Below the pieces are notes generated by a model, which saw nothing but the letters and a program-made list of their open reading frames with translations, made no database searches and was not told the DNA's origin. A DNA stretch of 64,000 nucleotides from Thermodesulfobacteriota bacterium (GTDB taxonomy: Bacteria; Desulfobacterota_D; UBA1144; Nemesobacterales; CSP1-2): contig DATMAT010000023.1 in the NCBI GenBank assembly GCA_035559815.1, forward strand, positions 124,001-188,000, written 5' to 3'. The position numbers were made by a program, and so were the translations under genes. Numbering within the stretch: the stretch's first letter is position 1; every line of letters starts with the position of its first letter. Below, piece by piece: positions 2,328 through 21,527 of this stretch.

Positions 2328-2549
2328 ATGGAAAAGAGGTACGGGAACTGGAAAAAGCAGATGAATTGGACATCAATTCTTATATTCTCTAGCGCACCTT
2401 TAGCCTTTTTCTCGAACGAAATTAGTAAGATTCTGGATCATACCTCACCCATATTAGGCATCTTGGTTTGGAGTTCTCTTATTTTATGGAATGGATTTGT
2501 ATTTGTTATGTGTGTGAAGGAGTTGTGGAAGGAATGGAAAAAAAGGTAA
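2328..2549 (+). CDS. Small two-helix membrane protein
   Basis: The 73-residue product has two hydrophobic segments (about residues 15-30 and 43-62), a basic N-terminus and a Lys/Trp-rich C-terminus. It begins 4 bases after the signal peptidase stop and overlaps traW by 16 bases, the tight packing expected of a translated operon member. I do not recognise its family. A small inner-membrane transfer accessory protein is the simplest reading; no function can be assigned. Confidence 0.55.
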   Translation: MEKRYGNWKKQMNWTSILIFSSAPLAFFSNEISKILDHTSPILGILVWSSLILWNGFVFVMCVKELWKEWKKR

Positions 2550-3154
2550 TTGCTCTAGGAATTGTCTTATTTGGTACTTTTGTTGTAGTCCGGCCCTGCG
2601 CGCTGCAGGCTGAGCCGAAAGACTTGGGAGTATATGGAAAGCTCTATCCCATAGAAGAGGTGGATTTGCTTGCCTACATTCAGGAACGAGCAAGGGAGGT
2701 AAACCCAGAAGAACTAAATAAGAAGATGAGAGAGGATTTTGAGCGTTCTTTAGAAGTATCCCTGAACATTCCTGAAGCAAAAGAGGTGAGAACGAGATAC
2801 GTTGACCCGTCAATCATTGTTACTTCCCCTGTCTATGACCATAAAGGCCATGTGATCGCGTCATCTGGCAGCATTAATCCACTTGAGAAGTTACAGCTTA
2901 CAAATACGATCGTAGCTTTAAAGGAGTCCCAGACGGAGATAATCCCCCAGCTGAAGAAATCCCATAAGAATCTTCTAGTGCTTCTTACTGACGGAAACCT
3001 CCCAAGAGCGGCCGAGAAGATAGGGCAAATGGTTTACAAGGGAGATAGCCATATACTGGAGAGGTTAGGGGTAGAGCGTGTGCCAAGCGTGATAACTCAG
3101 GAAGGGGTAAGATTAAAGGTGGAAGAGATTCCGGTCAAATCTAATTCTAGGTAG
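2534..3154 (+). CDS. traW: F-type conjugation periplasmic protein TraW
   Basis: TraW is a periplasmic pilus assembly protein that acts with TrbC and TraU. The 206-residue product starts at the ATG at 2534, with AAGGAG about 11 bases upstream. It has a signal peptide (residues 1 to about 24, likely cut after ALQA), and the mature protein opens with the TraW signature DLGVYGKLYPIEEVDLL. The C-terminal half has the thioredoxin-like fragment pattern known from TraW (LLVLLTDGNL, VERVPSVI). The 22 codons upstream of 2534 lie within the preceding gene and look non-native. It is the last gene of this transfer block; traU, its usual neighbour, lies 28 kb away on the other strand. Confidence 0.9.
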   Translation: MEKKVIALGIVLFGTFVVVRPCALQAEPKDLGVYGKLYPIEEVDLLAYIQERAREVNPEELNKKMREDFERSLEVSLNIPEAKEVRTRYVDPSIIVTSPVYDHKGHVIASSGSINPLEKLQLTNTIVALKESQTEIIPQLKKSHKNLLVLLTDGNLPRAAEKIGQMVYKGDSHILERLGVERVPSVITQEGVRLKVEEIPVKSNSR

Positions 3155-3533: not shown

Positions 3534-4994
3534 ATGCCACCGCAGAAAGATATCAAAGAAAAGTGGGAATTGTGGGTAGGAGGTAAGAATATACCGGCAA
3601 AAAATGGCAAAGTAACCCATGTGACAAACCCTTATACAGGAGAGGTTATAGCAGAAGTAAGCATAGCTTCTAAAGAAGATGTTGAAGCTGCCATCGAAAG
3701 TGCACTCACAACTTTCAAATCTACTACGAAACACATGCCGTCCCACAAGGTAAGTGAGATTCTCTATAAGACATCTGGTCTAATAGCAGAGTTAAGTGAG
3801 GATTTTGCTCGCACTATATCGCTTGAAGCCGGAAAGCCGATTCGTGAATCCCGTGGAGAGGTCTCAAGGGCAGTTCAGGTGTTTCGGCTTGCGGCCGAAG
3901 AAGCAAATCGTATCAGTGGAGAAGTTGTTCCAACGGATGCTGTTGCAGGTGCTGAATCGCGTTTTGGCCTTGTAGTAAGAGAGCCCCTTGGAGTAATTGG
4001 GGCGATTGCCCCTTTTAACTTTCCATTAAATCTCGTCGTACACAAAGTGGCCCCAGCGATAGCCGCAAAAAATACGATAGTTCTAAAGCCCGCTGAAAAA
4101 ACTCCTCTCTCTTCCCTTAAGCTTGCCAGAGTACTTCATGAAGCAGGGCTCCCACCGGGAGCCTTAAATGTTGTTATGGGAAGTGGTCCAGAGGTAGGAA
4201 GCGTACTCGTCCAAGATGAAAGAGTTAGAATGATAACCTTTACTGGTAGTGTCCCTGTAGGAAAGGAAATAAAAGAAAAAAGCGGTCTAAAGAAAGTAAC
4301 CTTAGAACTCGGTGCAAACTCCCCGAATATTGTCTGTGCCGATGCCGATATCGACTCTGCCGCAAGAGCTCTGGTACCCGCCTCCTTTGCCTACGCAGGT
4401 CAGGTATGCATTTCCGCCCAGAGGATTCTTGTTCATAAAGATGTAGAAGAATTATTTCGCAGAACCTTTATTAACCTGGTAAAGAGCCTAAAAATAGGTG
4501 ATCCCCTGGAGGAGACCACTGATATGGGTCCGATGATATCAGAGTCGGAGGTGAGAAGAACTAAGGAGTGGGTAGACGAAGCAAAAAGGCAGGGAGCTAA
4601 GGTATTAATAGGCGGAACTGGAGAAGGAAACGTTTTCTACCCAACTGTTCTTTCCGATGTCAAACCCTCTATGAGAGTAGTATGTCAGGAGGTGTTCGCA
4701 CCTGTAGTTTCTATAATCCCATTTAGAACTAATGAGGAAGCAGTAGAGCTAGCTAATGATTCTACTTATGGGCTTCAGGCTGGTGTTTTTACTCAAAACT
4801 TAAACACCGCCCTCTACTTCGCCCAGGCATTGGAAGTAGGTGGGGTATGGATAAACGAGTCCACTATCTATCGCCAACAGAATGCCCCTTACGGCGGCGT
4901 GAAGATGAGCGGCCTGGGACGGGAAGGGGTAAAGTATACCATAGAAGAGATGACAGAACTTAAGTTTATTGGGATAAAGGGACCTTTTAGTTAA
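3534..4994 (+). CDS. NAD(P)-dependent aldehyde dehydrogenase
   Basis: A full-length ALDH-superfamily enzyme (486 residues) that would oxidise an aldehyde to the acid in the cytoplasm. The catalytic Cys292 lies in AGQVCISAQR, the general base Glu258 in TLELGANSP, and Asn162 in APFNFPLN. These segments resemble the lactaldehyde / sulfolactaldehyde / glyceraldehyde-3-phosphate-like branch more than betaine aldehyde dehydrogenases, so a small hydroxylated or sulfonated aldehyde is plausible. It is first in the plus-strand island, 18 bases ahead of the CoA-transferase-like pair. The substrate is not determined by sequence. Confidence 0.88.
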   Translation: MPPQKDIKEKWELWVGGKNIPAKNGKVTHVTNPYTGEVIAEVSIASKEDVEAAIESALTTFKSTTKHMPSHKVSEILYKTSGLIAELSEDFARTISLEAGKPIRESRGEVSRAVQVFRLAAEEANRISGEVVPTDAVAGAESRFGLVVREPLGVIGAIAPFNFPLNLVVHKVAPAIAAKNTIVLKPAEKTPLSSLKLARVLHEAGLPPGALNVVMGSGPEVGSVLVQDERVRMITFTGSVPVGKEIKEKSGLKKVTLELGANSPNIVCADADIDSAARALVPASFAYAGQVCISAQRILVHKDVEELFRRTFINLVKSLKIGDPLEETTDMGPMISESEVRRTKEWVDEAKRQGAKVLIGGTGEGNVFYPTVLSDVKPSMRVVCQEVFAPVVSIIPFRTNEEAVELANDSTYGLQAGVFTQNLNTALYFAQALEVGGVWINESTIYRQQNAPYGGVKMSGLGREGVKYTIEEMTELKFIGIKGPFS

Positions 4995-6809: not shown

Positions 6810-8942
6810 ATGAACCTCGATTTTTTCTTTACTCCCAAATCTGTTGCTATCATAGGAGCTTCCAACCGTAAGGGAAGCATGGGATATGTATTCATGGAAA
6901 ACATAACACAAGCAGGATATGAAGGAGAGATCTTCCCTATTAACCCTAACGAAGATGTGGTCTTTGGTCTTAAGGCTTATAGAGATATAAAGGATGTTCC
7001 TATTGATGTAGACCTGGCGGTTGTCCTTGTTCCTGCAGAGAAAGTGCCTGAAGTAATGAGTCAATGCGGTGAAAAGGAAGTAAAAGGTGCTGTAGTGATA
7101 AGCAGTGGATTTGCTGAAGCTGGAGAGGAGGGAGCACGATTACAGGAAAAATTGGTAGATACCTCGAAGAGATACGGAATAAGGGTTTTAGGTCCTAACT
7201 GCTTCGGTCTTTACAACTGTAATATCGGTTTGAATGTATCCCTTGCCTTAGGGTCTCCTGAGAGGGGTGGAAGGATCTCGCTGGTAACACAGAGTGGTGC
7301 TTATGGAATGGCTATATACACCTTTGCTCTAGACCACTCCATGAAGTTTGCAAAAATTATCGCTCCTGGGAATAAGTGCGACCTTCAGGATTATGAAATT
7401 CTTAGTTATTTAGGTCAAGACCCTGAATCAAAGGTTATATGTTTCCTAGCAGAGACGATTTCTAAGGGTAGAGAATTTTTTGAAATGGCAAGGGAGGTTA
7501 CCCCTAGAAAGCCTGTGATTCTGGTTAAAACCGGTCGTACAGAAGGCTCAAAAAGGGCAGCTCTTTCTCATACCGCATCACTTGCAGGAAATTTAGAAGC
7601 TTATAGGGCAGCTTTTCGGCAGGCTGGGATAATCGAAGTAAGAAGCGGTTTGGAGATGATAGACCTTGCCAAGGCTTTGGATTTCCAGCCACTTCCCCAT
7701 GGCAAGAGAGTTGGAATAGTAACGAACTCTGGCGGTACTGGAGTTGAGTTAACCGACCTGTTGGAAGAATCCGGTCTTGTGGTGCCCGAACTACCCAATG
7801 AATATCAGGATACATTAAGAAATGTGCTTCCGGCTTATGCCAGTCCTAGGAACCCCATAGATGTGACTCCCTTATGGAGCAGGTTCACCGAGCTCTATAG
7901 TAAGAGTATAGCGTCCCTTTTTGAATGTCCTGACATAGATATCATCATTCCTATACTCCTTCAAAGATCTGCGATGATGAAGGAGGTAGCCGAGGCGGTA
8001 AGGGATACCGTAGTTCATTACCAGAAGGTAAAGAAAGTTCAAAAACCTGTGTACGTCTGCTGGGTGAGCACCAGGGAGCATTTGAAAAATACGGAAATAC
8101 TCCAGTCAGCGGGAATACCCTGTTATGAGTGGCCGGAGAGGAGTGCAAGGATTGTGGGGTATATCGCTGGTTATGCAGACTATGTAAATAAGATTAAAAG
8201 TTTAGATGTAAGCACAACTCCACCACCACAAGCACGGAAAGAAAAAGTCAAAGAGATTCTCATGGAGGTCAGCAAAGAAAACAGAAACTACGTATTTGAG
8301 CCAGAAGTAAAGAAGATACTCTCACTTTATGGGATCAGAGTAACCAAAGAACGGATGTGTTCCTCATTTGATGAAGCAGTTAGGACAGCAAACGAAATCG
8401 GATACCCGGTGGTTTTAAAAGTGGTGTCCCCGGATGTAGTTCACAAATCTGATTCCGGTGGTGTTGAGATAGGAATAAAAAATGCTTCTCAACTTGAAGA
8501 GTCTTATATGAGAATTCAAAAGAACGTTCAATTAAAAACGCCTTCAGCCACGATCAAGGGGATTCTCGTTCAGGAAATGGTTAAAGGCAAAGAAGTAATA
8601 ATAGGATCGGTAAGAGATTCTAATTTTGGCCCCTTAATGGTATTCGGTATGGGAGGTATTTTTGTTGAGGCTTTGAGAGATGTGTCTTATAGACTGGCTC
8701 CCTTAACCGAACTCGAATCTCAAGAGATGATAGAGGAGATAAAAGGTTATCCATTATTAAGAGGTTATCGTGGTGAGAGGGGGGTCGACCTTGAAGAACT
8801 AAAGCGGACAGTGATGATGATTTCCTCCTTATTAGTTGATTTTCCAGAGATAAAAGAGATGGATTTAAACCCGGTTTTTGTGAATGAGAATGAAGTTATT
8901 GTGGCTGATGGAAGAATGTTTTTAGATAATCACAGAGATTAG
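6810..8942 (+). CDS. ADP-forming acyl-CoA synthetase (fused alpha/beta)
   Basis: This 710-residue protein interconverts an acid, CoA and ATP with acyl-CoA, ADP and phosphate. The order is a CoA-binding Rossmann domain (residues 1 to about 130, AIIGASNRKGS and VLGPNC), succinyl-CoA-ligase-like domains carrying the phospho-histidine His254 in ALSHTASLAG, and a C-terminal ATP-grasp domain (about 490-710, GYPVVLKVVSPDVVHKSD). It is intact and of normal fused length. It starts 19 bases after the CoA-transferase pair and ends 5 bases before xecD. It could activate a carboxylate product or make ATP from acyl-CoA. Confidence 0.9.
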   Translation: MNLDFFFTPKSVAIIGASNRKGSMGYVFMENITQAGYEGEIFPINPNEDVVFGLKAYRDIKDVPIDVDLAVVLVPAEKVPEVMSQCGEKEVKGAVVISSGFAEAGEEGARLQEKLVDTSKRYGIRVLGPNCFGLYNCNIGLNVSLALGSPERGGRISLVTQSGAYGMAIYTFALDHSMKFAKIIAPGNKCDLQDYEILSYLGQDPESKVICFLAETISKGREFFEMAREVTPRKPVILVKTGRTEGSKRAALSHTASLAGNLEAYRAAFRQAGIIEVRSGLEMIDLAKALDFQPLPHGKRVGIVTNSGGTGVELTDLLEESGLVVPELPNEYQDTLRNVLPAYASPRNPIDVTPLWSRFTELYSKSIASLFECPDIDIIIPILLQRSAMMKEVAEAVRDTVVHYQKVKKVQKPVYVCWVSTREHLKNTEILQSAGIPCYEWPERSARIVGYIAGYADYVNKIKSLDVSTTPPPQARKEKVKEILMEVSKENRNYVFEPEVKKILSLYGIRVTKERMCSSFDEAVRTANEIGYPVVLKVVSPDVVHKSDSGGVEIGIKNASQLEESYMRIQKNVQLKTPSATIKGILVQEMVKGKEVIIGSVRDSNFGPLMVFGMGGIFVEALRDVSYRLAPLTELESQEMIEEIKGYPLLRGYRGERGVDLEELKRTVMMISSLLVDFPEIKEMDLNPVFVNENEVIVADGRMFLDNHRD

Positions 8943-8947
8943 TAACT

Positions 8948-9706
8948 ATGAAGTTACAGGGAAAAGTAGCGATTGTTACAGGGGCAGGTTCAGGAATCGG
9001 AAGAGCTATTGCTGTTGCCTTCGGTAGAGAAGGCGCAAACGTTGCAATAGTAGATGTGAATCTGGAAGCGGCCAGAGAAACTGAGAGACAGGTTAATGAA
9101 ACCGGAAGCAAAAGCATAACAAAAAAGACAGATGTAACTAAATGGAGTGATGTAGATAACATGGCGACTGAAACCCTAATGAAATTCGGTCGGGTCGATG
9201 TATTGATAAACAACGTCGGAGTTCCAGGCTCTCAAGAGGCTATGATTCTTCACACCACACCCGAAGAGGAGTGGGATAGGGTAATAACTACCAATTTAAA
9301 GAGTGTCTATCTTTGCTCAAAACGAGTAATCCCAGAGATGATAAGACAAGGAGGAGGAAAAATCATTAACCTCTCCTCCACAGCGGGTATTGTAGCCTTC
9401 CCAGGGAGGGCAGCATATACGGCGTCTAAAGGGGGAGTGTCGCTTCTTACCAAAGCAATGGCACTTGATTACGCAAAACACAAAATTAACGTTAACGCCA
9501 TATGTCCGGGGATGGTCGAGACCTCCATGACCAAATGGCGGCTGGATAATCCTGGACTTAGAAAGGAGGTGGAAGACTGGATTCCATGGGGAAAGATAGG
9601 GATGCCAGAGGATATAAGCGGAGCGGCGGTTTTTCTTGCTTCGAGCGATTCTGACTACGTAACCGGGCATCTGCTTATTGTGGATGGCGGTTTACTTACT
9701 AGATAA
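8948..9706 (+). CDS. xecD: R-type 2-hydroxypropyl-CoM dehydrogenase homologue (SDR)
   Basis: A short-chain dehydrogenase of 252 residues with TGAGSGIG (11-18), catalytic Tyr157/Lys161 and nearby Ser143/144. It closely resembles the remembered Xanthobacter R-HPCDH (XecD). The segments LHTTPEEEW, VAFPGRAAYTASKG and CPGMVETSMTKWRLD match it nearly residue for residue. R154 (three before the Tyr) and R198 align with Arg152 and Arg196, which bind the CoM sulfonate in R-HPCDH. The expected reaction is oxidation of R-2-hydroxyalkyl-CoM to the ketone with NAD. It is packed between the acyl-CoA synthetase and the regulator. Alignment was done by eye from memory. Confidence 0.82.
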   Translation: MKLQGKVAIVTGAGSGIGRAIAVAFGREGANVAIVDVNLEAARETERQVNETGSKSITKKTDVTKWSDVDNMATETLMKFGRVDVLINNVGVPGSQEAMILHTTPEEEWDRVITTNLKSVYLCSKRVIPEMIRQGGGKIINLSSTAGIVAFPGRAAYTASKGGVSLLTKAMALDYAKHKINVNAICPGMVETSMTKWRLDNPGLRKEVEDWIPWGKIGMPEDISGAAVFLASSDSDYVTGHLLIVDGGLLTR

Positions 9707-9729
9707 AAACTCAGAACCAAGGAGGTTTA

Positions 9730-10467
9730 ATGATGGTAGACGAACCGAAGTTTCTAACCACTGAGGAGGCGGCAAAGCTTCTTAAGGTAAGTGAAGCTTC
9801 AATTAGAAGATGGTCTAATCAGGGTAAGCTCAAGTGTTATAGGATTGGAGGGAGAGGTGAAAGGCGATTTCTGTTAAGCGACCTATTAGAGTGCATTGAG
9901 ACATTCAAAGAAGAGGAAAGCAAGGCAAATCATTTTTCCCTCTTTTTCCGGAGTGAGAAAGAGCAGTTGGATGCGGTGGTTCCATTCTTAGCCGACTACC
10001 TCCAACGCGGTCATCGGGTGCTTTATGTTCGGGACGCAACCGAAGAAGAAAAGCTCTACTCCTTGCTAGAAGAAAGAAGAATTAATGTGAAGGAACTTAC
10101 GGCACGCGGGAGCTTATGCATATTTGACTCCTCAGAGGTTTACTTAAAAGACGGCTACTTCGATATGGAAAGGATGTTCTCTTTCTGGGAAACGGCTTTA
10201 GAAGAATCCTCAAAGATGGGCTACAGCAAGGTTTTTTGCTCAGGGGAGATGACCTGGTACTTAAAAGGTTTGCCCGGTGTTGAAACGATGATGGAATATG
10301 AAGCGAAGTTAAATCGTATTACCGACAACCATCCAGAGGTCACCATATTATGCCAGTATGACGTAAATCGCCTGAGTGGTGCTGTCGTAATAGATTCTGT
10401 TATCTCCCATCCGATGGTGCTTCTGGAGAACCGCTGTTACCGGGGTTATTACAACTATCCCACTTAG
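9730..10467 (+). CDS. HTH-MEDS (DcmR-type) transcriptional regulator
   Basis: The 245-residue protein has an excisionase/MerR-like helix-turn-helix at residues 6-55 (TTEEAAKLLKVSEASIRRW) and a C-terminal MEDS domain (about 70-240), the sensory domain described in methanogens, methylotrophs and DcmR. Typical MEDS segments are HFSLFFRSEKEQLDAVVPFL and the late CQYDVNRLSG. DcmR controls dichloromethane dehalogenase, so a role in sensing a small C1-C3 substrate or its adduct fits. GGAGG precedes the start. Its last codons are duplicated downstream as part of the tandem leader, which suggests it controls the xecA-like gene directly after it. Confidence 0.85.
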   Translation: MMVDEPKFLTTEEAAKLLKVSEASIRRWSNQGKLKCYRIGGRGERRFLLSDLLECIETFKEEESKANHFSLFFRSEKEQLDAVVPFLADYLQRGHRVLYVRDATEEEKLYSLLEERRINVKELTARGSLCIFDSSEVYLKDGYFDMERMFSFWETALEESSKMGYSKVFCSGEMTWYLKGLPGVETMMEYEAKLNRITDNHPEVTILCQYDVNRLSGAVVIDSVISHPMVLLENRCYRGYYNYPT

Positions 10468-10624
10468 GGGAAGGAGGTGATTGATCGGCTTGGTCATGCT
10501 GAGAGCTAGAGGACCAAGAGGCAAAAAAGAACAATAGCTTTGTTACAACTATCCCGCTTAGGGAAAGGAGGTGATTGATCAGCTTGGTATGCTGAAAGCT
10601 ACGAGAACCAAGAAAAAAAGAATG
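10451..10624 (+). repeat. Tandem duplicated leader with anti-SD and hairpin
   Basis: Two copies of an element of about 80-90 bases lie 94 bases apart (starting at 10451 and 10545), between the regulator and xecA. Each copy has the regulator's last codons (ACAACTATCC..CTTAGG), then AAGGAGGTGATTGATC, then a hairpin with a CTTGGT/ACCAAG stem (10489-10495 with 10512-10518; 10583-10588 with 10607-10612). GAAAGGAGGTGAT in copy 2 is complementary to the extreme 3' end of bacterial 16S rRNA over about 13 bases, longer than an ordinary ribosome binding site. Short reading frames start in each copy (for example a TTG frame at 10481 ending TAG at 10537), but they are not conserved between copies. Confidence 0.7.
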
Positions 10625-10666
10625 TAGGCATTAAGGAAACGAAAACACAAAGGGAGGTAAAAACCC

Positions 10667-11794
10667 ATGAAAGTAAGAGGTCAAGAGATAATGCTTCCCA
10701 CCACAATGGTGGGTAATTACCCGAACCCCAGGTGGTTTGATCACCTGGCTAGTTTTTCACATTTCTCTAACGTTCCTTACGGTGACCTTATAATGGACAC
10801 CCCAGAGGCTGAAGCATTTGAGGACGCTATGCTTGCTCTTGCTCATGACCAGGAAGCTGCAGGGCTTGATATTATCTGTGATGGGAGACTCCAGGCTGTG
10901 GGTGCTTACGGAAGAATTCTTTATTACTATCCTGAGAGGATGACGGGTTATGAGCCATACGGTCCGCTAATTGGACTTCCCATCTACAGCCGTCTTTACG
11001 CTCCTACATGTGTGGGTCCCATAAGGAGAAAAGTCCCTATGATGGTGCCTGTAGCAAAGGCTCTCAAGAAAGCGACGAACAAGCCTATTAAGATTCAGTA
11101 CACGGGTGTTCAGGTTCTGGCGCAAGCAACTAATGACAAGCACTATAACGATAAAAGAAAACTGGCCATGGATATTGCCGCTGCCTATAACGAAGATATC
11201 TTAGAACTCGATGAACTCGGCGTTGATTTTATCCAGATAGATGAGTTCACCTGGCCTTACATAATAGAGGATTGGGCTATTGATGCTTTCAATAGAGCAG
11301 TACAGGGAGTAAAGAAGGCAAAGATCGTGTGTCATGTTTGTTTCGGCAACTGGGGAGGAACACCCGGTTATTACCCAGATGAAACTGCTAAAACTGGAGA
11401 TGCTTATCCGATTCACCTCCGCAAGGGAGACAGTCCCAAAGGAGCCTGGGCTGTAATTCCTAGAGCTTACGACGCAAAAATAGACGTGCTCAATATAGAG
11501 TTTGGGCGCGAGAGGAATATTGACGACCTCAACGCATTCGACAAACATCCGCTTCCAAAGAATATGGATTTTTCTGCCGGTGTCCTTGATGTAAAGAGCA
11601 CAATTACTGAGACTGCAGAGGAAGTTGCCGGACGCATCAGGAAAGTACTGAGTCATGTCCCCGCCGATCGATTGGGTCTGACTACCGACTGTGGATTGAT
11701 TCTCCTTCAGCGGTATATCACTACCGAGAAGCTAAAGGCTCTGGTTGCCGGGGCTAATCTTGTAAGAGCTGAGCTTGCGAAGAAGGTAGCCTGA
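10667..11794 (+). CDS. xecA: Epoxyalkane:CoM transferase-like zinc protein, copy 1
   Basis: A 375-residue protein of the MetE C-terminal (vitamin-B12-independent methionine synthase) fold. The zinc motif His-x-Cys..Cys is seen as H223, C225 (CHVCFGNWGG) and C342 (TTDCGL). Epoxyalkane:CoM transferase (XecA, about 377 residues) is this family at this length, and uses zinc to activate the CoM thiol to open epoxides to 2-hydroxyalkyl-CoM. Sequence alone would also allow another thiol alkyltransferase; the carboxylase and both dehydrogenases beside it decide the call. GGGAGGT lies before the start, behind the duplicated leader. It shares its N-terminus (MKVRG..E..LPTTMVG) with the copy at 19037. 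Confidence 0.8.
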   Translation: MKVRGQEIMLPTTMVGNYPNPRWFDHLASFSHFSNVPYGDLIMDTPEAEAFEDAMLALAHDQEAAGLDIICDGRLQAVGAYGRILYYYPERMTGYEPYGPLIGLPIYSRLYAPTCVGPIRRKVPMMVPVAKALKKATNKPIKIQYTGVQVLAQATNDKHYNDKRKLAMDIAAAYNEDILELDELGVDFIQIDEFTWPYIIEDWAIDAFNRAVQGVKKAKIVCHVCFGNWGGTPGYYPDETAKTGDAYPIHLRKGDSPKGAWAVIPRAYDAKIDVLNIEFGRERNIDDLNAFDKHPLPKNMDFSAGVLDVKSTITETAEEVAGRIRKVLSHVPADRLGLTTDCGLILLQRYITTEKLKALVAGANLVRAELAKKVA

Positions 11795-11812
11795 AAAAGT
11801 TGTATTTGGTGA

Positions 11813-11843
11813 GGACAGGCTTCATTTAAAATGAAGTCTGTCC
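11813..11843 (+). terminator. Long hairpin after xecA
   Basis: GGACAGGCTTCAT and ATGAAGTCTGTCC pair over 13 positions with one G-U and a TTAAA loop. No good T-run follows, so this may be an mRNA-stabilising or attenuating hairpin, allowing strong xecA expression with partial read-through to the carboxylase gene, rather than a full terminator. Confidence 0.55.
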
Positions 11844-11979
11844 TTGGCAGATTGTGTAATTTATCGGCTTATCAGATTTAATTTTGAGTCGAAGGAGAAA
11901 TGAGTAAAGAAGGCTAGTTGTGAGATACATTACTGCAAAAAGGGGCTAGAAACATATTAGCTTTTGAGGAGGTATTAGC

Positions 11980-13470
11980 ATGAAGTTATACGATGGTTCA
12001 AAGCCAATTGATAACTATGACTCTTCGGTGAAGGAATACGATGCAATTTTCATCGGCGGCGGCGCCGGAGGAAGATTCGGCTCTAGCTATCTTAGAGCTA
12101 TGGGAGGTGAACAATTAACGATTGATAAGGATAACCATTTAGGTGGGAAATGTACTAAAAATGCATGTGTTATCCATCACTACCTTTTTGACATAGCGGT
12201 GGAGCTTGATTTTGCAAGGCTCTTTGATAATAAAAAGTGGTATCCAAAGATACCAGTAAGTAACGGAAAAGTAGAGATGGTGCCTATGATTAAGGATTTT
12301 CTCGAAGGAAGAAATCATGCATATGACATAATGTATTACCAGAGCAAACATCAACTAGGTCTCAAGTTTATTCTTAATCGAAAAGCAGAAGTTATCGATA
12401 AAAACACTGTAGAAGTTGAAGGGAAAATTTTTAAGACCAAGAACCTTGTTGTAGGTACAGGCTCAAGGGCAGCAATTCCAAACGTTCCAGGAAACAACCT
12501 TAATGGGGTTTATACATACGAAAGCTTCCTTGACTTGGACTATGAACCAAATAATGTAGTGGTGGTTGGTGCATCCAAGACAGGTATTCCCTGGGCATCT
12601 TTCTTTAATGCTGTAGGTTGCAATACTACCTTAGTTGAAATGACTCCTATTCTTTCTGCTTTTAATCTGGATGAAGACGTAAAGCAGTATGTCATCGAGG
12701 GAATGAAGTTTAGGGGTATGAGGATAATGGACAACACAATGCTTATGAGTATTAACGGAAACGGCCATGTGGAGTCTGTAACTGTCAGGGGAAAAGATGG
12801 AAAGGAGGAGACGATAAAGGCAGACATGGTATTTCTTGGAACCGGATGTATTCCAAACTCCGAGATAACCAAACCTCTAGATATTCAGATCGGGAATAGA
12901 AATGAGATTGTTGTCGATAAGACAATGAGAACAACCGCTTCGGGGGTTTACGCAATAGGGGATGTTACGGGAGGCCCAATGGAGATGTGGAAAGCAAGGA
13001 AAGCTGGTATGGTGGCGGCAAAGAACATATTAGGAACTCACGCTGAGCTTGATACGGAATTCTTTCCAGATTTTCTTCATACCACTTACGAAATAACGTG
13101 GATAGGTATGACAGAAAAGGAAGCGAAGGAGAAGCTTGAGAAAGTTTTTGTAATAAGGATGCCGGTGAAGGATTTTCCTGGCCTTTGCCCGATTCCTCTA
13201 GCGGAAAGGTCTATGTTGTTGAGTCATATACGAACGGGGCTTAACGGATTTCAGAAGGTCATCTACGATGCAAAGACGAGGAAATTGATAGGAGCTCAAC
13301 ATGTGGGGTACGGAGCCAAAGATTCATTCCAGTATCTGGAGTACTTAATTCGTAATGGCGCGACAATAGATGATATGGCTAATCTGAATGAGCTATTTTT
13401 AAATCCTACCCATTTCATACAGCTATCTAGATTAAGGGCGGGTATGAAATCCTTGGAGGATCTGTCATAG
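11980..13470 (+). CDS. xecC: 2-ketopropyl-CoM oxidoreductase/carboxylase homologue
   Basis: A 496-residue FAD disulfide oxidoreductase that closely matches the remembered Xanthobacter 2-KPCC. The N-terminus EYDAIFIGGGAGGRFGSSYL, the redox pair C58-x4-C63 and the C-terminus ELFLNPTHFIQLSRLRAG are almost the same. F473 and H478 match Phe501 and His506, the unusual pair that replaces the His-Glu dyad of ordinary disulfide reductases and favours carboxylation over protonation. VVVGASKTG is the nucleotide site, again in the 2-KPCC form. Expected reaction: cleavage of 2-ketopropyl-CoM with NADPH and CO2 to acetoacetate and CoM. It is about 27 residues shorter at the N-terminus than XecC. GAGGAGG lies before the start. 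Confidence 0.9.
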   Translation: MKLYDGSKPIDNYDSSVKEYDAIFIGGGAGGRFGSSYLRAMGGEQLTIDKDNHLGGKCTKNACVIHHYLFDIAVELDFARLFDNKKWYPKIPVSNGKVEMVPMIKDFLEGRNHAYDIMYYQSKHQLGLKFILNRKAEVIDKNTVEVEGKIFKTKNLVVGTGSRAAIPNVPGNNLNGVYTYESFLDLDYEPNNVVVVGASKTGIPWASFFNAVGCNTTLVEMTPILSAFNLDEDVKQYVIEGMKFRGMRIMDNTMLMSINGNGHVESVTVRGKDGKEETIKADMVFLGTGCIPNSEITKPLDIQIGNRNEIVVDKTMRTTASGVYAIGDVTGGPMEMWKARKAGMVAAKNILGTHAELDTEFFPDFLHTTYEITWIGMTEKEAKEKLEKVFVIRMPVKDFPGLCPIPLAERSMLLSHIRTGLNGFQKVIYDAKTRKLIGAQHVGYGAKDSFQYLEYLIRNGATIDDMANLNELFLNPTHFIQLSRLRAGMKSLEDLS

Positions 13471-13481
13471 GGGGTGGGAAT

Positions 13482-13670
13482 ATGCCGATTTATTCACTGA
13501 GTTGTCAAAGCTGCGGCCATCGTTTTGAGACCCTGTACTTTAAGGGATTAAGGCTTCCAGATAAGTGGGTTTGTACACGCTGTGAAAGTGAAGATGTGGT
13601 ACTGGAGGGGGAAACACCCCATCCTTGGGAGCAAGAACACGGAGGGGGTTCATGTCCGTGTTGTTTTTGA
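13482..13670 (+). CDS. FmdB-like zinc ribbon protein
   Basis: This 62-residue protein has two knuckles, CQSCGHRFE and CTRCESED, in the pattern of FmdB-family small zinc ribbons, plus a short CPCCF tail after a glycine-rich stretch. FmdB proteins were first noted as possible regulators of formamidase and amidase genes and often sit beside catabolic operons. It begins 12 bases after the carboxylase gene and is probably co-transcribed. A regulatory or metal-handling role is possible but not shown. Confidence 0.72.
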   Translation: MPIYSLSCQSCGHRFETLYFKGLRLPDKWVCTRCESEDVVLEGETPHPWEQEHGGGSCPCCF

Positions 13671-13684
13671 GAATTGAATGTTTT

Positions 13685-13760
13685 TGCCACGGTGTTCACA
13701 GAGAACACAGAGAGATTTTAGTAAAGGGTTTGATTAATCAATCCACTCCGTAAACTCTAT
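13685..13760. repeat. Dispersed GCCACGGTGTTCACAGAGAA-type repeat
   Basis: GCCACGGTGTTCACAGAGAA runs on into CACAGAGAG (13686-13714), and CTTCGTGGCT lies at about 13765. Repeats of this kind, with facing arms rich in 'CACAGAGAACACAGAG', are scattered in many environmental bacterial genomes. Here it occupies the gap before xecE and may form a weak long-range hairpin. Confidence 0.45.
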
Positions 13761-13797
13761 ATACTTCGTGGCTAAAAACAATAAAAGGAGATTAATA

Positions 13798-14556
13798 ATG
13801 AGACTAAAGTATAAAGTTGCTATTATCACTGGAAGCGGCTCAGGTATAGGTAAAGCTGCGGCTCTTATGTTCGCGAGAGAGGGAGCGAAAGTTATTGTAG
13901 CTGATATTGATGAAGCTGCAGCAAAAAAGACAGTAGAAGAGATCAAAATTCAAGGCGGTGAGAGTACTTTCTTTCAGGTTGATGTCACCAAAGAACTACA
14001 GGTAAAGCAGATGATCGATGTGACAGAAGAGAGATTTGGTCGTCTTGATGTTCTTTTTAACAATGCTGGAATGCAAAATATCGGAAGCATCTTAGAGGTT
14101 AAAGAAGAGGATTGGAATAAGGTTTTTGATGTTAACGTCAAGAGTGTATTCTTCTGCTCCAGGCATGCAGTGCCCCTTATGATCCGAAACGGAGGGGGTT
14201 CTATTATAAACGTTTCTTCAGTAGCAGGTGTGGTAGGAGTACCCAAGCTTGCTGCTTATTGTGCCGCAAAGGGCGCCGTGGCGCTTTTGACTAAGAATAT
14301 GGCTTTAGATCTTGCTTCCCATAAGATTCGGGTAAATTGTTTAGTTCCCGGCACCACATTAACTCCTCTCATACAAGATTTGCTAAAGACAGATGATACT
14401 GAAGAAAAACGTCGCGCCCGGCTTGCAAAGTATCCTATAGGAAGGTACGGCAACCCGGAGGACATTGCAGCCGCGGCACTTTTTCTCGCTTCGGATGAGG
14501 CCTCTTTTATCACGGGGTCATCTCTTGTAGTTGATGGAGGAATGACAGCGATGTGA
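13798..14556 (+). CDS. xecE: S-type 2-hydroxypropyl-CoM dehydrogenase homologue (SDR)
   Basis: A 252-residue short-chain dehydrogenase with TGSGSGIG and the catalytic Tyr154/Lys158. It resembles remembered Xanthobacter S-HPCDH (XecE): AGVVGVPKLAAYCAAKGA and RLAKYPIGRYGNPEDIA are near-identical segments, and both end in VDGGMTA plus one residue. R208 and K211 keep the Arg-x-x-Lys spacing of Arg211/Lys214, which bind the CoM sulfonate in S-HPCDH. It would oxidise the S enantiomer left by the R enzyme at 8948. The ATG at 13798 is chosen because AAAGGAG sits at 13784-13790; the longer reading from 13768 adds residues without family support. Confidence 0.83.
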   Translation: MRLKYKVAIITGSGSGIGKAAALMFAREGAKVIVADIDEAAAKKTVEEIKIQGGESTFFQVDVTKELQVKQMIDVTEERFGRLDVLFNNAGMQNIGSILEVKEEDWNKVFDVNVKSVFFCSRHAVPLMIRNGGGSIINVSSVAGVVGVPKLAAYCAAKGAVALLTKNMALDLASHKIRVNCLVPGTTLTPLIQDLLKTDDTEEKRRARLAKYPIGRYGNPEDIAAAALFLASDEASFITGSSLVVDGGMTAM

Positions 14557-14656: not shown

Positions 14657-15589
14657 ATGCGATCTGAGGAGTACTTCGACAGAAAATTGTATATAAAAGA
14701 AAGAGAAACAAATATTGCGCGCTATCAAGATAAAGTGAGAAATAATGAAAGAATCCCCTCGTTTGAGGAGTTAGTAGAACCGCTCCCTCTACACTCTCCT
14801 AAGAGGTGGTATTACGGGGCGGTATCGCTCCTTCTGCAAACAATCAGTACGTTTTCGGAAGGAATAAAAATCGGCTACACGCACGGTTTTGATTCAGGAA
14901 TGATTATGAACTACATCTATGAAAATGAGCCTCATGGAAAACTCTACATCGGACGGCTAATAGATAAAGCGTTTTTAAATCAGATTACTTGTAAAGCCTT
15001 TAGGGCTGTAAAACAAATCACGCAGAATGTTCTTATTGATTACCTTGAGGAGAGAAAAAACAAGCCGACTTTTATCGTAGACTTAGCTTCAGGCAAAGCT
15101 GACTATATCTATGATGTTTTAAGAGACGGGCAATACAAGGATGTTAAAGTCCTTTTACGGGATATAGACAGGGTGGCGCTCGAGGAGAGTAAAGGTATTG
15201 CTGAAAAGAGAGGGCTCCTAAAGCAAATCCGCTTCGAGCAGGGTGATGCGCTTGATGTCGAGTGTCTCAAATCGATTCCCCTAAACCCCAACCTTGTAAT
15301 TGAGATCGGTCTTTATGGAATTATACATGACGACGACCTAATACGCAGGCATCTTTGTGATCTGAGAGAGTTTCTTAATCCGGAAGCACTTCTATTTAAT
15401 GTCCAGACTTACAACCCTCAGATAGAACTCATTGCAAGGGCACTCAAGAATCGAGATGGAGAGAGGTGCGTTTGGCATCTGCGCTCCGCAGAGCAGATAG
15501 TAAAATGGGCAGAGCAGGCTGGATTTAAAGAGCCGAAAGTCACCATGGATCCCTACGGAGTTTATGCAGTGGTTATGATGAGAAATTAA
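14657..15589 (+). CDS. Class I SAM-dependent methyltransferase-like protein
   Basis: The 310-residue product has an N-terminal helical half of unknown role and a C-terminal Rossmann-like domain. That domain has motif I VDLASGKADYIYDVL (about 143-157), an acidic strand end LLRDID, and RFEQGDALD, which together are typical of class I methyltransferases. The substrate is unknown. It opens the second block of the island and is followed after 14 bases by the aminotransferase-fold gene, so the two probably act in one pathway. It could also use SAM for something other than methyl transfer. Confidence 0.62.
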   Translation: MRSEEYFDRKLYIKERETNIARYQDKVRNNERIPSFEELVEPLPLHSPKRWYYGAVSLLLQTISTFSEGIKIGYTHGFDSGMIMNYIYENEPHGKLYIGRLIDKAFLNQITCKAFRAVKQITQNVLIDYLEERKNKPTFIVDLASGKADYIYDVLRDGQYKDVKVLLRDIDRVALEESKGIAEKRGLLKQIRFEQGDALDVECLKSIPLNPNLVIEIGLYGIIHDDDLIRRHLCDLREFLNPEALLFNVQTYNPQIELIARALKNRDGERCVWHLRSAEQIVKWAEQAGFKEPKVTMDPYGVYAVVMMRN

Positions 15590-15603: not shown

Positions 15604-16989
15604 ATGAAAAAGGAGAGATTTGTTCTAGGATGGGAAGATGAAACTCAAGCTTTGTCAGCTTTGAAGTGTATTTTATCAAATAGAATTAAGTCCGTAATGG
15701 AGAGCCCTCATGGTATGTGGAACTATATGAGCTATCGTGATGCCATACAGATACTAGATATGAATCCTCAGGAGGTATATAGAGAGGGTAGAGTTGACCT
15801 GGACCCTAAAGAATGGGCTGATCTGGGCTGGATGACTTGCTATGCCGGTCCGCCTGAGAGCGCAGTGATGGTTATGCAAAAATGCACAACTGCAGAAAAT
15901 ATGAATCCATACTCCCCGGATCTTATAAATCCCCTTCGGGATGTGTCCGCCCGAACAAAGTTCAAGCGAGAAAGAGATAGGACCTTCGAAGTTATTGGGA
16001 CTGAAGGAGCGCAGGCCGGGATTTCCTATACTCTTCAAACATTTGTTAATCCCGGAGACGAAGTTATCATAACAGACCCCGGCTATTTTCACTTTGAGTC
16101 AGCGATCCTTATGGCAGGTGGAGTCCCCATAAGGATTCCTCTTACGGAACAAAAAGGTTATCGCTTGAACCCTGATGAGGTTGAAGAGAGAATTACGCCC
16201 CGCACAAAGGTTGTTTTGTTATGCAACCCGTTGAATCCATTCGGTACGGTGCAGACAAAGGACGAGTTGATTGCTCTGGCGGAGATAGCTCAAAATCGGA
16301 ATATCGTAATAATAGATGACATCACTCATAACACTCACCGGATTGACCCAAATGCTACTCACTATCCAATGGCTTCTTTGTGGAAAGAGACGAATGTAGA
16401 TAATGTAGTTTCAACCTTCAGCGTTTCCCATGGCTACGGTATGGCCGGCGTTCGTCTAGGGTTTCTGGCTGGACATCCAGACCTAATGAGAGCATGCCTT
16501 ATGGCAAAGGTTGCTTTAACCCGACTCAACACGAATTTAGTTGCCCAATACGGAGCTTTGGCCGCTTTGCAGGATGAGGAATATGTAAGAAAATCTGAGG
16601 CCATTATTCGCCGAAATTACACTCATGTTAAAGAAACGGTTAGCCAAACACCCGGCGTATCAATACCCGTGGAACCTAAATATGGATTTTCTATGGTCAT
16701 TGACGTCTCGAAAACCGGCGTGAGCGCTCAGGAGTTGACTGTAGCTTTATTTAAGCACCGGGTGGCTGTATATCCGGGAGATGGATTAGGCAATATAGGC
16801 GCAACCGAGTATATTCGGCTTAATCTTTCAAGGCCGGATATGTGGGCTCTTGAGCATTTCAGAGAGTCCCTACCCAAAGCTATTTCTGAAGCGCAGACCG
16901 GTGTTTATCGAAAGGGGGTAATACGATTCTTTGAGCAAAAGGGGACCGAGCGGGCAAGAAGGATTTTAAAGAAGCTAAAGGGTGGATGA
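15604..16989 (+). CDS. Aminotransferase-fold protein lacking the PLP lysine
   Basis: A 461-residue fold-type I (class I/II) aminotransferase relative. Familiar elements are TDPGYFHFESA, LLCNPLNPFGT (PLP ring contacts), VIIDDI and a C-terminal YIRLNLSRPD carrying the substrate-binding Arg. The usual Schiff-base motif S-K-x-Y-G-M-A-G reads SVSHGYGMAGVRLG, so the lysine is His276 (codon CAT at 16429-16431). The rest is intact, with no frameshift nearby. It may bind PLP or PMP without transamination, do PLP-independent chemistry, or use another lysine. It lies between a methyltransferase-like and a luciferase-like gene, 3 bases from the latter. Confidence 0.8.
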   Translation: MKKERFVLGWEDETQALSALKCILSNRIKSVMESPHGMWNYMSYRDAIQILDMNPQEVYREGRVDLDPKEWADLGWMTCYAGPPESAVMVMQKCTTAENMNPYSPDLINPLRDVSARTKFKRERDRTFEVIGTEGAQAGISYTLQTFVNPGDEVIITDPGYFHFESAILMAGGVPIRIPLTEQKGYRLNPDEVEERITPRTKVVLLCNPLNPFGTVQTKDELIALAEIAQNRNIVIIDDITHNTHRIDPNATHYPMASLWKETNVDNVVSTFSVSHGYGMAGVRLGFLAGHPDLMRACLMAKVALTRLNTNLVAQYGALAALQDEEYVRKSEAIIRRNYTHVKETVSQTPGVSIPVEPKYGFSMVIDVSKTGVSAQELTVALFKHRVAVYPGDGLGNIGATEYIRLNLSRPDMWALEHFRESLPKAISEAQTGVYRKGVIRFFEQKGTERARRILKKLKGG

Positions 16990-16992: not shown

Positions 16993-17931
16993 ATGAAACG
17001 AATTGCAACTGTTTCACCTGTTCGGGGATGTAGTGTTGAGGATCTCCGCGCTCTTGCTAGTGAAAACGAGGAAGCAGGATTCGAGGCGATATTTTCTCCT
17101 GAGCTTCCGCCATATAGTGCTATCGCCAATGCCCAGGTCTTTGCCGAAGTAACATCCAAAATAAAGATCGGCACTTGGATTACCAATATTTACATGCGCC
17201 GTCCCGTGATGTGCGCCGCTGAGGCGCTCACAGTTCAAGAGATTTCTGGTGGAAGGATGGTGCTTGGAGTCGGTGTAAGCCATAAACCCGTAAATGAGCG
17301 TTTTGGAATTGATATGGGAGACCCAATTGAGGAGATGCGTAAATATGTATTGGCGGTAAGGTCATTTGAAGATGGCAGTTCACCGCTTTTGACTATTAAG
17401 AGAGAGATTGCTCCCTTTCCAATTTACATTTCTGGGCTTACAGAGAGAGCGGCGGAACTAGCAGGAGAAGTGGCGGATGGCTTTATGCCTAATCTTGCAA
17501 CTCCCGATCATATTAGGAAACTAACCAATGCTGTTAGAAGAGGTGCGGAAAAGGCAGGTCGTTCACCTCAAGATATAGAAATTACAAACGGAATTTATTC
17601 CTTCATTTCAGACGACTTAGAAAGCGCTTATAGGGCTGCTGCAAGTGCCTTTGTAGGCTATGCAAGGCTTCCATTCTATCAGCGTCTTTTTAGAAACGTA
17701 GGTTTCGAGGACATTGTTGACAAGATAAGGTCAGGTGTGGAGCCTTCTGAGGCGTTTACTCAAGAATTCCTTGATACAATGGCACTGATTGGTCCTGAAG
17801 AGAGATGCCGTAAGAAGTTAGAAAAACACAGAGAGGCAGGAGTCGAGCTTCCCGTTATTGTGCCATACCCTGTCGGTAAACAGAGCCATATTGAAGTGAT
17901 GAAAAGAACAACTCGAACATTTTCAGAATAA
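16993..17931 (+). CDS. Luciferase-like (LLM class) flavin/F420 oxidoreductase
   Basis: A 312-residue TIM-barrel protein of the luciferase-like monooxygenase / F420-dependent reductase family. The pattern KIKIGTWITNIYMRRP, then the substrate-barrel segment ISGGRMVLGVGVSHKPV, and later PIYISGLTERAAELAGEVADG are typical. Members use FMN with O2 (monooxygenase or desulfonating types such as SsuD) or F420H2 (methylene-H4MPT reductase-like). The cofactor cannot be told here. In this thiol/sulfonate context either a C-S or C-N redox step is conceivable. Confidence 0.8.
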   Translation: MKRIATVSPVRGCSVEDLRALASENEEAGFEAIFSPELPPYSAIANAQVFAEVTSKIKIGTWITNIYMRRPVMCAAEALTVQEISGGRMVLGVGVSHKPVNERFGIDMGDPIEEMRKYVLAVRSFEDGSSPLLTIKREIAPFPIYISGLTERAAELAGEVADGFMPNLATPDHIRKLTNAVRRGAEKAGRSPQDIEITNGIYSFISDDLESAYRAAASAFVGYARLPFYQRLFRNVGFEDIVDKIRSGVEPSEAFTQEFLDTMALIGPEERCRKKLEKHREAGVELPVIVPYPVGKQSHIEVMKRTTRTFSE

Positions 17932-17989: not shown

Positions 17990-18970
17990 ATGAAAATTAA
18001 AAAGGGGATCTTGGAACTTATAGGGAACACGCCCCTCGTTAAACTTGAAAAAATAACAGAAGGTCTAAACGCAGAGATATACCTTAAACTGGAGTCTTTT
18101 AACCCTACCGGAAGTATCAAAGATAGGGTCGCCCTTTATTTTATAGAAGATGCAGAGAAGCGAGGTGACCTTAAGCCAGGGGATGTTATTGTAGAAGCTA
18201 CTTCAGGAAACACGGGCACGTCACTTGCTATGGTGGCTGCAGTTAAAGGTTACAGATGTATGCTTGTACTACCTGAAACGGTAAGCACAGAAAAAATTAA
18301 AGCACTTAGAGCTTTCGGAGCGGAAGTGATTCTTACTCCAGCAGGGCTTCTATTCGACGATGAGAGGAGTTACTACAGTGTAGCAGAGAAAATTGCTAAA
18401 CAAAGAAGTGGAGCTTACCTCAATCAGTATTTTAATCCTATCAATCCTGAATCTCATTTTAGAACTACTGGTCCGGAGATTTGGAGAGACACGAATGGAG
18501 AGGTGGATGTAGTTATCTGTGGTATAGGAACAGGGGGCACAATTTCAGGAATTGGGCGATACCTTAAGGGGAAAAAAGCCAATGTAAAGGTTATCGGTGT
18601 TGAGCCCGTAGGCTCGGTTTATCGTACCTATTTAAGGAGCGGAAAAGTTGAGAAGGCTACTAAATTCAAAATAGAGGGAATAGGGAAAAATTTTATTCCC
18701 GGGGTTATTGATTTTCATTATATCGACGATGTGATTCAGGTAGATGATGAAGAGTCATTTAAAATGGTAGAGACCTTGATGAAGGATGAGGGAATACTTG
18801 CTGGCGGTTCAGGCGGCGCAGCAATAGCTGGGGCTCTTAAGTACGCTCAATATGCCGATAAGAAAGAGTATATTGTGACGATTCTTCCGGATACAGGGTT
18901 GAAGTATCTTTCTAAGTCTTCTGAGGCTCATTTTCTACAGGCTACTTTTCTTAAGAGCGCAGACGGATAG
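17990..18970 (+). CDS. Cysteine-synthase-like PLP enzyme (fold type II)
   Basis: The 326-residue product has the O-acetylserine sulfhydrylase / cystathionine beta-synthase core. PLP Lys44 lies in NPTGSIKDRVALYF, the phosphate/substrate loop is TSGNTGTS (71-78), and CGIGTGGTISGIGRYL binds the PLP phosphate. These enzymes replace a beta leaving group with sulfide, thiols or, in cysteate synthases, sulfite. A PLP enzyme does the thiolation step of bacterial CoM synthesis, so a role in making the thiol used by the neighbouring transferases is attractive but unproven. Housekeeping cysteine synthesis is the alternative; its location argues against that. Confidence 0.82.
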   Translation: MKIKKGILELIGNTPLVKLEKITEGLNAEIYLKLESFNPTGSIKDRVALYFIEDAEKRGDLKPGDVIVEATSGNTGTSLAMVAAVKGYRCMLVLPETVSTEKIKALRAFGAEVILTPAGLLFDDERSYYSVAEKIAKQRSGAYLNQYFNPINPESHFRTTGPEIWRDTNGEVDVVICGIGTGGTISGIGRYLKGKKANVKVIGVEPVGSVYRTYLRSGKVEKATKFKIEGIGKNFIPGVIDFHYIDDVIQVDDEESFKMVETLMKDEGILAGGSGGAAIAGALKYAQYADKKEYIVTILPDTGLKYLSKSSEAHFLQATFLKSADG

Positions 18971-19036: not shown

Positions 19037-20092
19037 ATGAAAGTAAGGGGAGAAGAAATTCTACTTCCGACAACAATGGTAGGATCTTATCCAAGGCCAC
19101 ATTGGCTCACAGGGAAAGTCTTCGGAGAATTCGATGAACCTGACTTCATAGATTATTTGACCAAGGAATACTACGAAGATGCGGTTATGCTCTGTGTAAA
19201 AGAGCAAGAGGATGCAGGGCTTGATATCGTGACTGACGGACAGCTCTATCTGGAATCTGAAACTACACATGAATACGGTCAGGTGTTTCATTTTATGGCT
19301 CACCATCTAAGTGGATTTAAGAAATTTGGTGAGCCTATTTCCATTGAACTTTATAAAAAGTTCCACGCGCCCGTCGTTCATGACAAGATCCATTGGGGCA
19401 GACCTATTTTAGCGCCAGTTCTAGAAGCGACGAAGGCAGCCACCAAAAAACCTATCAAGATTGCCTGTCAAGGTCCCCTTTTTCTCGCTTTTTGTTGCAC
19501 AGACCGATACTATGGTGATATAAAGCCATTGGCTATGGATATAGCCCGTGCGTATAATGAAGAATTTAAGGACCTCGCCCGAAGAGGCCTTGATTTAATC
19601 CAGATTCATGAGCCACTTACATTTTATGTAGAAGCCTTAGGAGCACAGTACTGGTTTATTGATGTGCTTAATACAGCATTCGATGGAGTGAAGGCCTACA
19701 AGGTATGGCATATATGCTATGGGAACCAGGGAGGCAACCCAGGGGTATCAAAGACTCAAGGAAATATAATGTTCCCGTTTGCATATGATGCTAACGTAGA
19801 TCAGATTCATATTGAACTTAAGAGTAGAGATTCAGATGATCTTAAGTACTTGAAGAGCTTCCCTAAAGATAAGGACCTTGGGATTGGCGCTATTAATGTG
19901 AAGACCTTTGTTGTTGAAACCCCACAGGAAGTTGCGAATGTTGTTCGAGAATCCATGAAAATTGTCCCGCCTGAAAGAATCTGTGTTAGCACAGATTGTG
20001 GTTTATTGAACCTTAAGCGTGAACATGCCAGGCGCAAGCTCAAAGCCCTTGTTGAAGGAACAAAGATTGTCCGCACCGAGGTCAGCAAGTAA
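19037..20092 (+). CDS. Epoxyalkane:CoM transferase-like zinc protein, copy 2
   Basis: A 351-residue MetE-fold zinc protein related to the gene at 10667: both open MKVRG-E-LPTTMVG, keep the zinc motif (here H225, C227, C321) and end LKALV.G....R.E. It differs where the substrate would sit: residues 21-45 and the WHICYGNQGG/QIHEPLTF region replace CHVCFGNWGG/QIDEFTW. It is placed among cofactor-type genes, not with the carboxylase. It could act on a different epoxide, use a different thiol, or transfer an alkyl group during cofactor assembly. GAGGATC precedes the start. Confidence 0.75.
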   Translation: MKVRGEEILLPTTMVGSYPRPHWLTGKVFGEFDEPDFIDYLTKEYYEDAVMLCVKEQEDAGLDIVTDGQLYLESETTHEYGQVFHFMAHHLSGFKKFGEPISIELYKKFHAPVVHDKIHWGRPILAPVLEATKAATKKPIKIACQGPLFLAFCCTDRYYGDIKPLAMDIARAYNEEFKDLARRGLDLIQIHEPLTFYVEALGAQYWFIDVLNTAFDGVKAYKVWHICYGNQGGNPGVSKTQGNIMFPFAYDANVDQIHIELKSRDSDDLKYLKSFPKDKDLGIGAINVKTFVVETPQEVANVVRESMKIVPPERICVSTDCGLLNLKREHARRKLKALVEGTKIVRTEVSK

Positions 20093-21483: not shown

Positions 21484-21527
21484 CACTTAATAGAAGAAAA
21501 TATAAAACAAGGGAAAGAAAACTAAAC

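Follow-up and report, generated by a model that had tools for sequence, protein, structure and literature searches.

The 64,000-nucleotide stretch analysed here (the window; C23:124001-188000 of an unbroken contig of 373,737 bases) carries what we read, with a probability of about 0.78, as a coenzyme M (CoM)-dependent epoxide catabolic module on a conjugative element integrated at tRNA-Thr, in a probably aerobic Dadabacterium. Its core comprises homologues of XecA, XecC, XecD and XecE. The epoxide carboxylase pathway itself is already known, and at the level of homology the first-pass annotation of this DNA had named the gene module correctly; what is new is the phylum, the carriage on an integrative and conjugative element (ICE), an altered catalytic dyad of XecC in two lineages, and the absence of the CoM-synthesis families tested. 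The compared clusters lie mainly on plasmids; the present one would extend their range to another phylum and to a conjugative element integrated in the chromosome. We infer every catalytic step, the substrate, the transfer, the carboxylation and the CoM supply.

Identification of the four Xec homologues

The four genes are open reading frames within 8948-14556, on the + strand, where they had been annotated.

8948..9706, + strand: XecD, (R)-2-hydroxypropyl-CoM dehydrogenase homologue
10667..11794, + strand: XecA, epoxyalkane:CoM transferase (EaCoMT) homologue, 81% identical to its counterpart in a second Dadabacterium, Candidatus Dadabacteria CR02bin9 (G035)
11980..13470, + strand: XecC, homologue of 2-ketopropyl-CoM oxidoreductase/carboxylase (2-KPCC)
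13768..14556 (likely start 13798), + strand: XecE, (S)-2-hydroxypropyl-CoM dehydrogenase homologue

Among all chains of the Protein Data Bank (PDB), XecC is matched best by 2-KPCC (1MO9, 1.5e-137), with the next protein family at 1.7e-33. The best match of XecD is the (R)-hydroxypropyl-CoM dehydrogenase (HPCDH) 2CFC (2.4e-67), and that of XecE is 4GH5/4ITU (2.6e-63), which the PDB lists only as a short-chain dehydrogenase and which we take to be the S-HPCDH of Xanthobacter autotrophicus Py2. The PDB search returned no solved orthologue of XecA, but an alignment of 367 residues with Py2 XecA shows 60.5% identity. In phylogenetic trees, XecA falls in a seven-row XecA/EtnE clade (support 99/99), apart from methionine-synthase-like proteins, and groups with Py2 XecA (90/92). 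XecD falls in the XecD clade (99/99), and the XecE clade is recovered at 99/99 with Py2 included and at 96/89 with the actinobacterial copies. The inner order of the rooted XecC tree lacks support for an exact placement, so the membership of XecC rests on its best match and its residues. XecA, XecD and XecE are thus in the expected clades, and that part of the annotated placement stands; for XecC it is carried by the match and the residues instead.

The residues named in the first-pass annotation were also borne out by alignment. The zinc ligands H223, C225 and C342 of XecA are aligned in 12 of 12 rows, methionine-synthase-like relatives included, and are therefore necessary but not specific. 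XecC was aligned with sequences from Py2, Nocardioides JS614, Mycolicibacterium NBB4, Actinomycetospora, two metagenome-assembled genomes (MAGs) and the second Dadabacterium. It keeps the redox cysteine pair C58-x4-C63 (Py2 C82, C87), the Phe-His pair F473/H478 (Py2 F501/H506), where other disulfide oxidoreductases have His-Glu, and the CoM sulfonate-binding arginines R32 and R340 (Py2 R56 and R365), together with M118, M336 and Q481 (Py2 M140, M361 and Q509). XecD keeps an arginine pair, R154/R198 (Py2 R152/R196), and R208/K211 of XecE align with the Arg/Lys pair of Py2, presumably R211/K214, of which actinobacterial relatives keep only the Lys; we take both pairs to bind the sulfonate of CoM. 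The best-match gap, the clades and the residues exclude generic short-chain dehydrogenases/reductases (SDRs) or lipoamide dehydrogenase in place of the Xec proteins.

A tRNA-Thr-integrated conjugative element

The epoxide genes lie inside an element whose ends are outside the window. A gene for a tyrosine integrase lies directly beside tRNA-Thr(CGT) (C23:106576-106650). A 45-base copy of the 3′ end of this tRNA gene, differing at one position, is found at C23:221086-221130; the integrase at tRNA-Thr and this 45-bp att repeat indicate an ICE of ~114.5 kb. Its gene run is TraA, L, E, K, B, V, C, W, the cargo and then, inverted, TraU, TrbC, F, H, G. The F-type transfer operon is split between TraW and TraU, and the catabolic cargo fills the gap, flanked by transfer genes on both sides as annotated.

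1..1479, + strand: C-terminal part of TraC, ATPase of the F-type type IV secretion system (T4SS); whole gene C23:123029-125479 (Pfam P-loop_TraG 2.1e-35, TraC_F_IV 3.6e-6)
2468..3154, + strand: TraW, last transfer gene ahead of the cargo (TIGR02743, 4e-32)
24097..31745, − strand: TraG, TraH, TraF, TrbC and TraU, the inverted second half of the F-type transfer operon

The element also encodes an SXT-type TraD coupling protein. It therefore has an integrase with an att direct repeat at a tRNA gene, and a T4SS with a coupling protein. A tyrosine integrase, TraA-L-E-K-B-V-C-W and U-TrbC-F-H-G sets and SXT-type TraD also occur in SXT/R391-type and other F-type (MPF_F) elements, from which this one differs in the cargo that splits the operon, the inversion of the second half, the tRNA-Thr site and the lack of a recognised relaxase or TraN. 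An HD-domain protein after TraD (L005:7470-8930) is a candidate relaxase, although it matches no relaxase model. At the expected position of TraN is a 197-residue Cys-rich protein (29460-30053) with no match to a TraN model.

The left att site adjoins minC/minD-like genes, and the right-flank gene is 56-65% identical to its counterpart in six of six family relatives, none of which has tRNA-Thr within about 1.5 kb of it. The tRNA genes, the minC/minD-like genes and the att repeats exclude a megaplasmid and identify a chromosomal contig with an ICE. The conjugative context proposed earlier is thus upheld, with an ICE rather than a megaplasmid. The stretch with the epoxide genes is probably self-mobile, and its transfer by conjugation, also proposed earlier, is likely.

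The catabolic cargo and the proposed pathway

The cargo spans 3534-23372, and the functional module is wider than the 8948-14556 first given for it, with further genes on both sides of the xec genes. Upstream of xecA the order is aldehyde dehydrogenase (ALDH), CoA-transferase A and B, NDP-forming acyl-CoA synthetase (ACS), xecD and a MEDS-domain regulator gene; xecC and xecE follow xecA.

3534..4994, + strand: ALDH, first cargo gene (NCBIfam ALDH families, none above its curated cut-off among the matches listed)
5007-5951 and 5948-6790, + strand: subunits A and B of a CoA-transferase, 49% and 48% identical to the pNOCA01 pair beside EtnE; both also in Actinomycetospora
6810..8942, + strand: NDP-forming ACS (AcCoA-syn-alpha 1.7e-139), 41% identical to pNOCA01 and 74% to G035
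9730..10467, + strand: regulator with helix-turn-helix and MEDS domains (PF14417 2e-41, PF12728 2.3e-13)

Downstream of xecE, the cargo continues in the order listed here, with several enzymes that depend on pyridoxal 5′-phosphate (PLP).

14657..15589, + strand: methyltransferase MT20 (PF12147, 5.9e-61), which pairs with the aminotransferase in Dadabacteria
15604..16989, + strand: PLP aminotransferase-fold enzyme (AT), xec-linked subfamily (PF00155 5.2e-36)
16993..17931, + strand: luciferase-like flavin oxidoreductase of the F420 LLM class; LLM genes also lie near 2-KPCC on pNOCA01 (27% identical) and pMYCCH.01
17990..18970, + strand: PLP enzyme like cystathionine beta-synthase (CBS) or cysteine (cysteate) synthase, xec-linked subfamily
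19037..20092, + strand: second MetE/XecA-like zinc protein, XecA2 (PF01717 3.4e-29), grouping with the second Actinomycetospora copy (97/95) and 79% identical to G035
20128..21483, + strand: CoA-disulfide-reductase (CoADR)-like flavoprotein (TIGR03385 4.8e-153), 38-43% identical to homologues in the Actinomycetospora and pNOCA01 clusters
21525..22094, + strand: ferritin-like protein (profile match to bacterioferritin 1NF4, 8e-4)
22119..23372, + strand: fold-III PLP decarboxylase, similar to diaminopimelate (DAP) or N-citrylornithine decarboxylase, with a homologue in a Dadabacterial chromosomal cluster

Most accessory genes are in known company, because the ethene/vinyl chloride plasmids pNOCA01 (Nocardioides JS614) and pMYCCH.01/.02 (Mycolicibacterium chubuense NBB4) together carry ALDH, CoA-transferase A/B, NDP-forming synthetase, two SDRs, EaCoMT, 2-KPCC, LLM, CoADR-like and MEDS genes. 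On pMYCCH.01 the ALDH gene adjoins 2-KPCC, and MEDS regulators are present in other CoM/epoxide clusters. The single-sequence model of the ferritin-like protein is of moderate confidence and is uninformative on its role, since it has no PDB match below E 0.001 and its best match, the ferritin-like 3EZ0 (E 1.8e-3), has no assigned function.

In the proposed pathway, the zinc enzyme XecA would open a short-chain epoxide with the CoM thiol, XecD and XecE would oxidize the two hydroxyalkyl-CoM enantiomers to the ketone, and XecC, as an NADPH:disulfide oxidoreductase, would split the thioether, freeing CoM and releasing an enolate. The enolate would take up either CO2, to give a beta-keto acid such as acetoacetate, or a proton, to give a ketone. 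The CoA-transferase and the acyl-CoA synthetase would activate the acid, the CoADR-like enzyme may hold CoM reduced, and the MEDS protein may regulate the module. The matching gene complement on the alkene plasmids pXAUT01, pNOCA01 and pMYCCH.01/02 supports this reading.

One close counterpart is the epoxide carboxylase of Py2 (pXAUT01). Py2 has the same four enzymes (45-61% identical), with zinc ligands, cysteines and sulfonate-binding residues kept, and its epoxide carboxylase genes also lie on a conjugative replicon. In Py2, unlike in the window, the module adjoins an alkene monooxygenase and CoM synthesis genes of the comA type, and the 2-KPCC keeps the two histidines, H84 and H137, that XecC lacks.

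Several results weigh against the proposed reading. On the ICE, neither a relaxase nor TraN was recognised, and no empty att site was found in six family relatives. The soluble diiron alkene monooxygenase (PF02332) is absent from the host genome (G000) and from G035, with a positive Actinomycetospora control, which extends from the window to the whole genome the earlier remark that such an enzyme is missing. ComA (phosphosulfolactate synthase, PF02679), the first step of the bacterial CoM route, and HcyBio (ComF/COG1900, PF01837), the last archaeal step, are likewise absent from both genomes; the PF02679 controls (B. subtilis, M. jannaschii, Actinomycetospora) and the HcyBio control were positive. 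Finally, H84 and H137, which we take to be the catalytic (water-binding) histidine dyad of 2-KPCC, are replaced in XecC by K60 (AAA, window 12157) and Y115 (TAT, window 12322), and the same Lys/Tyr swap is found in G035, whereas eight of eight other 2-KPCCs have His-His. The title of Kofoed et al. 2011, as listed among the references of PMC6440738, names histidines as a catalytic dyad, and mutation of H137 reportedly almost abolishes the activity of the Xanthobacter enzyme. Without ComA, HcyBio and the H84/H137 dyad, the earlier description of the module as "complete" is not supported; the replacement of the dyad had gone unmentioned.

Supply of coenzyme M

CoM is the smallest known organic cofactor, and to our knowledge one bacterial and two archaeal routes to it are known. 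An apparently CoM-dependent pathway in genomes without the known CoM-synthesis families tested poses the question of where the cofactor comes from. The archaeal-type route (PMC12068725) is excluded by the absence of HcyBio. Where the Nocardioides and Mycolicibacterium plasmids have a CoM biosynthesis block, along with a diiron monooxygenase, the window has instead the MT20, AT, CBS-like, ferritin-like and decarboxylase genes.

At somewhat under even odds, the cell obtains its CoM from outside, methanogens being one possible source, and this block makes something unrelated. Consistent with uptake, the block has a relative on Dadabacterial chromosomes, ferritin-like-MT20-AT-(CBS)-decarboxylase, and many of the genomes that carry it have no XecA: AT is present in 22 of 44 genomes of the order, and the chromosomal cluster in most of those read. 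In addition, MT20-AT is kept in G037, a genome of the same genus as G035, where xecE and LLM persist only as fragments. These two findings disfavour a role of the MT20/AT/CBS block solely in CoM supply. Against uptake, AT and CBS each have an xec-linked clade of their own, common to G000 and G035 (100/99 and 100/100), and thus travel with the module. The xec-linked CBS copies have a TSGNTG loop, versus TSGNMG in six of six readable chromosomal copies. The ferritin-like and decarboxylase genes form no separate xec-linked clades. The chromosomal cluster of the host itself is at G000:C51 (L083:8793-13005), with relatives at L084-L100, and the ICE holds a second set.

It is quite improbable that an unprecedented route to CoM, or to a thiol sulfonate like it, is encoded by the MT20-AT-CBS-like-ferritin-like-decarboxylase block or by the xec-linked AT and CBS within it, and that XecC also uses its Tyr-Lys pair; such a route could, for example, add sulfite to a derivative of serine, in the manner of cysteate synthesis. 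If the PLP-enzyme block did supply CoM, yet another way of making this cofactor would be known; if it does not, CoM cross-feeding between microbes would be implied.

The changed dyad of XecC

Its sequence clearly places XecC among the 2-KPCC homologues, albeit with an altered dyad, and its carboxylase role is putative. The replacement of the His dyad by Lys/Tyr leaves both carboxylation and protonation of the enolate in play, and CO2-dependent formation of acetoacetate is not to be assumed for an enzyme that lacks H84/H137. A Tyr-Lys pair could do work similar to that of the His-His dyad. Tyr-Lys pairs protonate in other oxidoreductases, and a rather doubtful alternative is that Tyr115-Lys60 protonates the enolate, making XecC a reductase that yields a ketone and recycles CoM, in detoxification or a route for a different substrate. 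The shared swap in both Dadabacteria and the altered pocket (AYDIMYYQSK vs PHGIMNFQSK) fit such a reductase, but XecC keeps F473/H478, a pair that we take to block protonation in 2-KPCC, and the presence of genes for a CoA-transferase and a synthetase points to an acid as the product. The two Dadabacterial genomes are thus a natural experiment on which 2-KPCC residues decide enolate carboxylation.

2-KPCC homologues with the full active site were also seen in a Candidatus Rokuibacteriota MAG (L015 2789-4348) and a Bradyrhizobiaceae MAG (L014 9890-11449). Neither stretch has an EaCoMT or HPCDH orthologue, L014 having distant SDRs only, and neither genome has a match to ComA or PF02332. By eye, the neighbours of the rokubacterial gene are an omega-aminotransferase gene and ABC transporter genes resembling those of the nitrate/sulfonate type. 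Are these 2-KPCCs perhaps used outside alkene metabolism?

Substrate and epoxide source

The ALDH, CoA-transferase and synthetase genes could instead form an ethene-type arm (2-oxoethyl-CoM to acetyl-CoA) for the epoxide of ethene or vinyl chloride rather than for propene oxide, with XecC as an accessory. A CoA-transferase is an ethene feature (PMC6440738), and the ALDH/CoA-transferase/synthetase/CoADR set is shared with pNOCA01 and the pMYCCH plasmids, a similar set being present in Methylohalobius crimeensis. We consider this substrate unlikely: the module keeps both enantiomer-specific dehydrogenases, each with its sulfonate-binding residues, although the achiral product of ethene would call for no such pair, and XecA groups with that of Py2, as noted above.

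As to the source of the epoxide, a search for the pMMO/AMO-type monooxygenase family (PF02461) yielded no hit in the genome, nor in any positive control. The host genome has one P450, closest in sequence to structures of a bacterial 'putative P450' and a plant carotenoid hydroxylase; it is a weak candidate, given those relatives and its absence from G035. Methylohalobius crimeensis likewise has a CoM-dependent epoxyethane cluster with a MEDS regulator and no dedicated alkene monooxygenase (PMC11507031); it differs in carrying all five known genes for CoM biosynthesis, and pMMO is its proposed source of the epoxide.

Host genome and spread of the module

The host assembly (3.97 Mb in 79 contigs) is 98% complete with an estimated contamination of 3.8%, and the genome belongs to the same order as CR02bin9. 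The host is probably aerobic, since its genome has several haem-copper oxidase family genes. XecA was found in two of 58 genomes of the phylum, those of the host and G035. One contig of G035 has ACS-xecD-MEDS-xecA-xecC-xecE in the gene order of the window, and a second contig has AT-CBS-xecA2-CoADR-ferritin-like, each at about 71-80% identity; the repeated order of the first set excludes chance. In G037, C203 (L087:4216-6935) carries MT20 and AT in module order, preceded by a fragment of xecE (81 C-terminal residues) and followed by one of LLM (19 N-terminal residues); the locus reads as a remnant of the epoxide module.

An assembly or binning artefact that placed a foreign module or element in the host genome is very improbable, as the 79 contigs and the contamination estimate are outweighed by the unbroken 373-kb contig, the chromosomal genes at both ends of the ICE and the second Dadabacterium with the module. 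Viral or phage carriage was rejected, the phage records having no XecC and the viral contigs no XecA relative. In the paper library searched, no study turned up that connects Dadabacteria with the metabolism of epoxides.

Other genes of the element

Outside the epoxide module, the ICE carries a complete defence system.

34657..47869, + strand: type I BREX system (brxA, brxB, brxC, pglX, pglZ, brxL), identified with PADLOC

By eye, the element also encodes a beta sliding clamp (DnaN-like, 61811-62746) and a RadC-like protein (60944-61393). Just to the right of the window, at C23:191758-210833 and still on the ICE, are two very large genes of 2538 and 3728 codons, the product of the former resembling, by eye, an SpvB/TcaC-type toxin-complex component.

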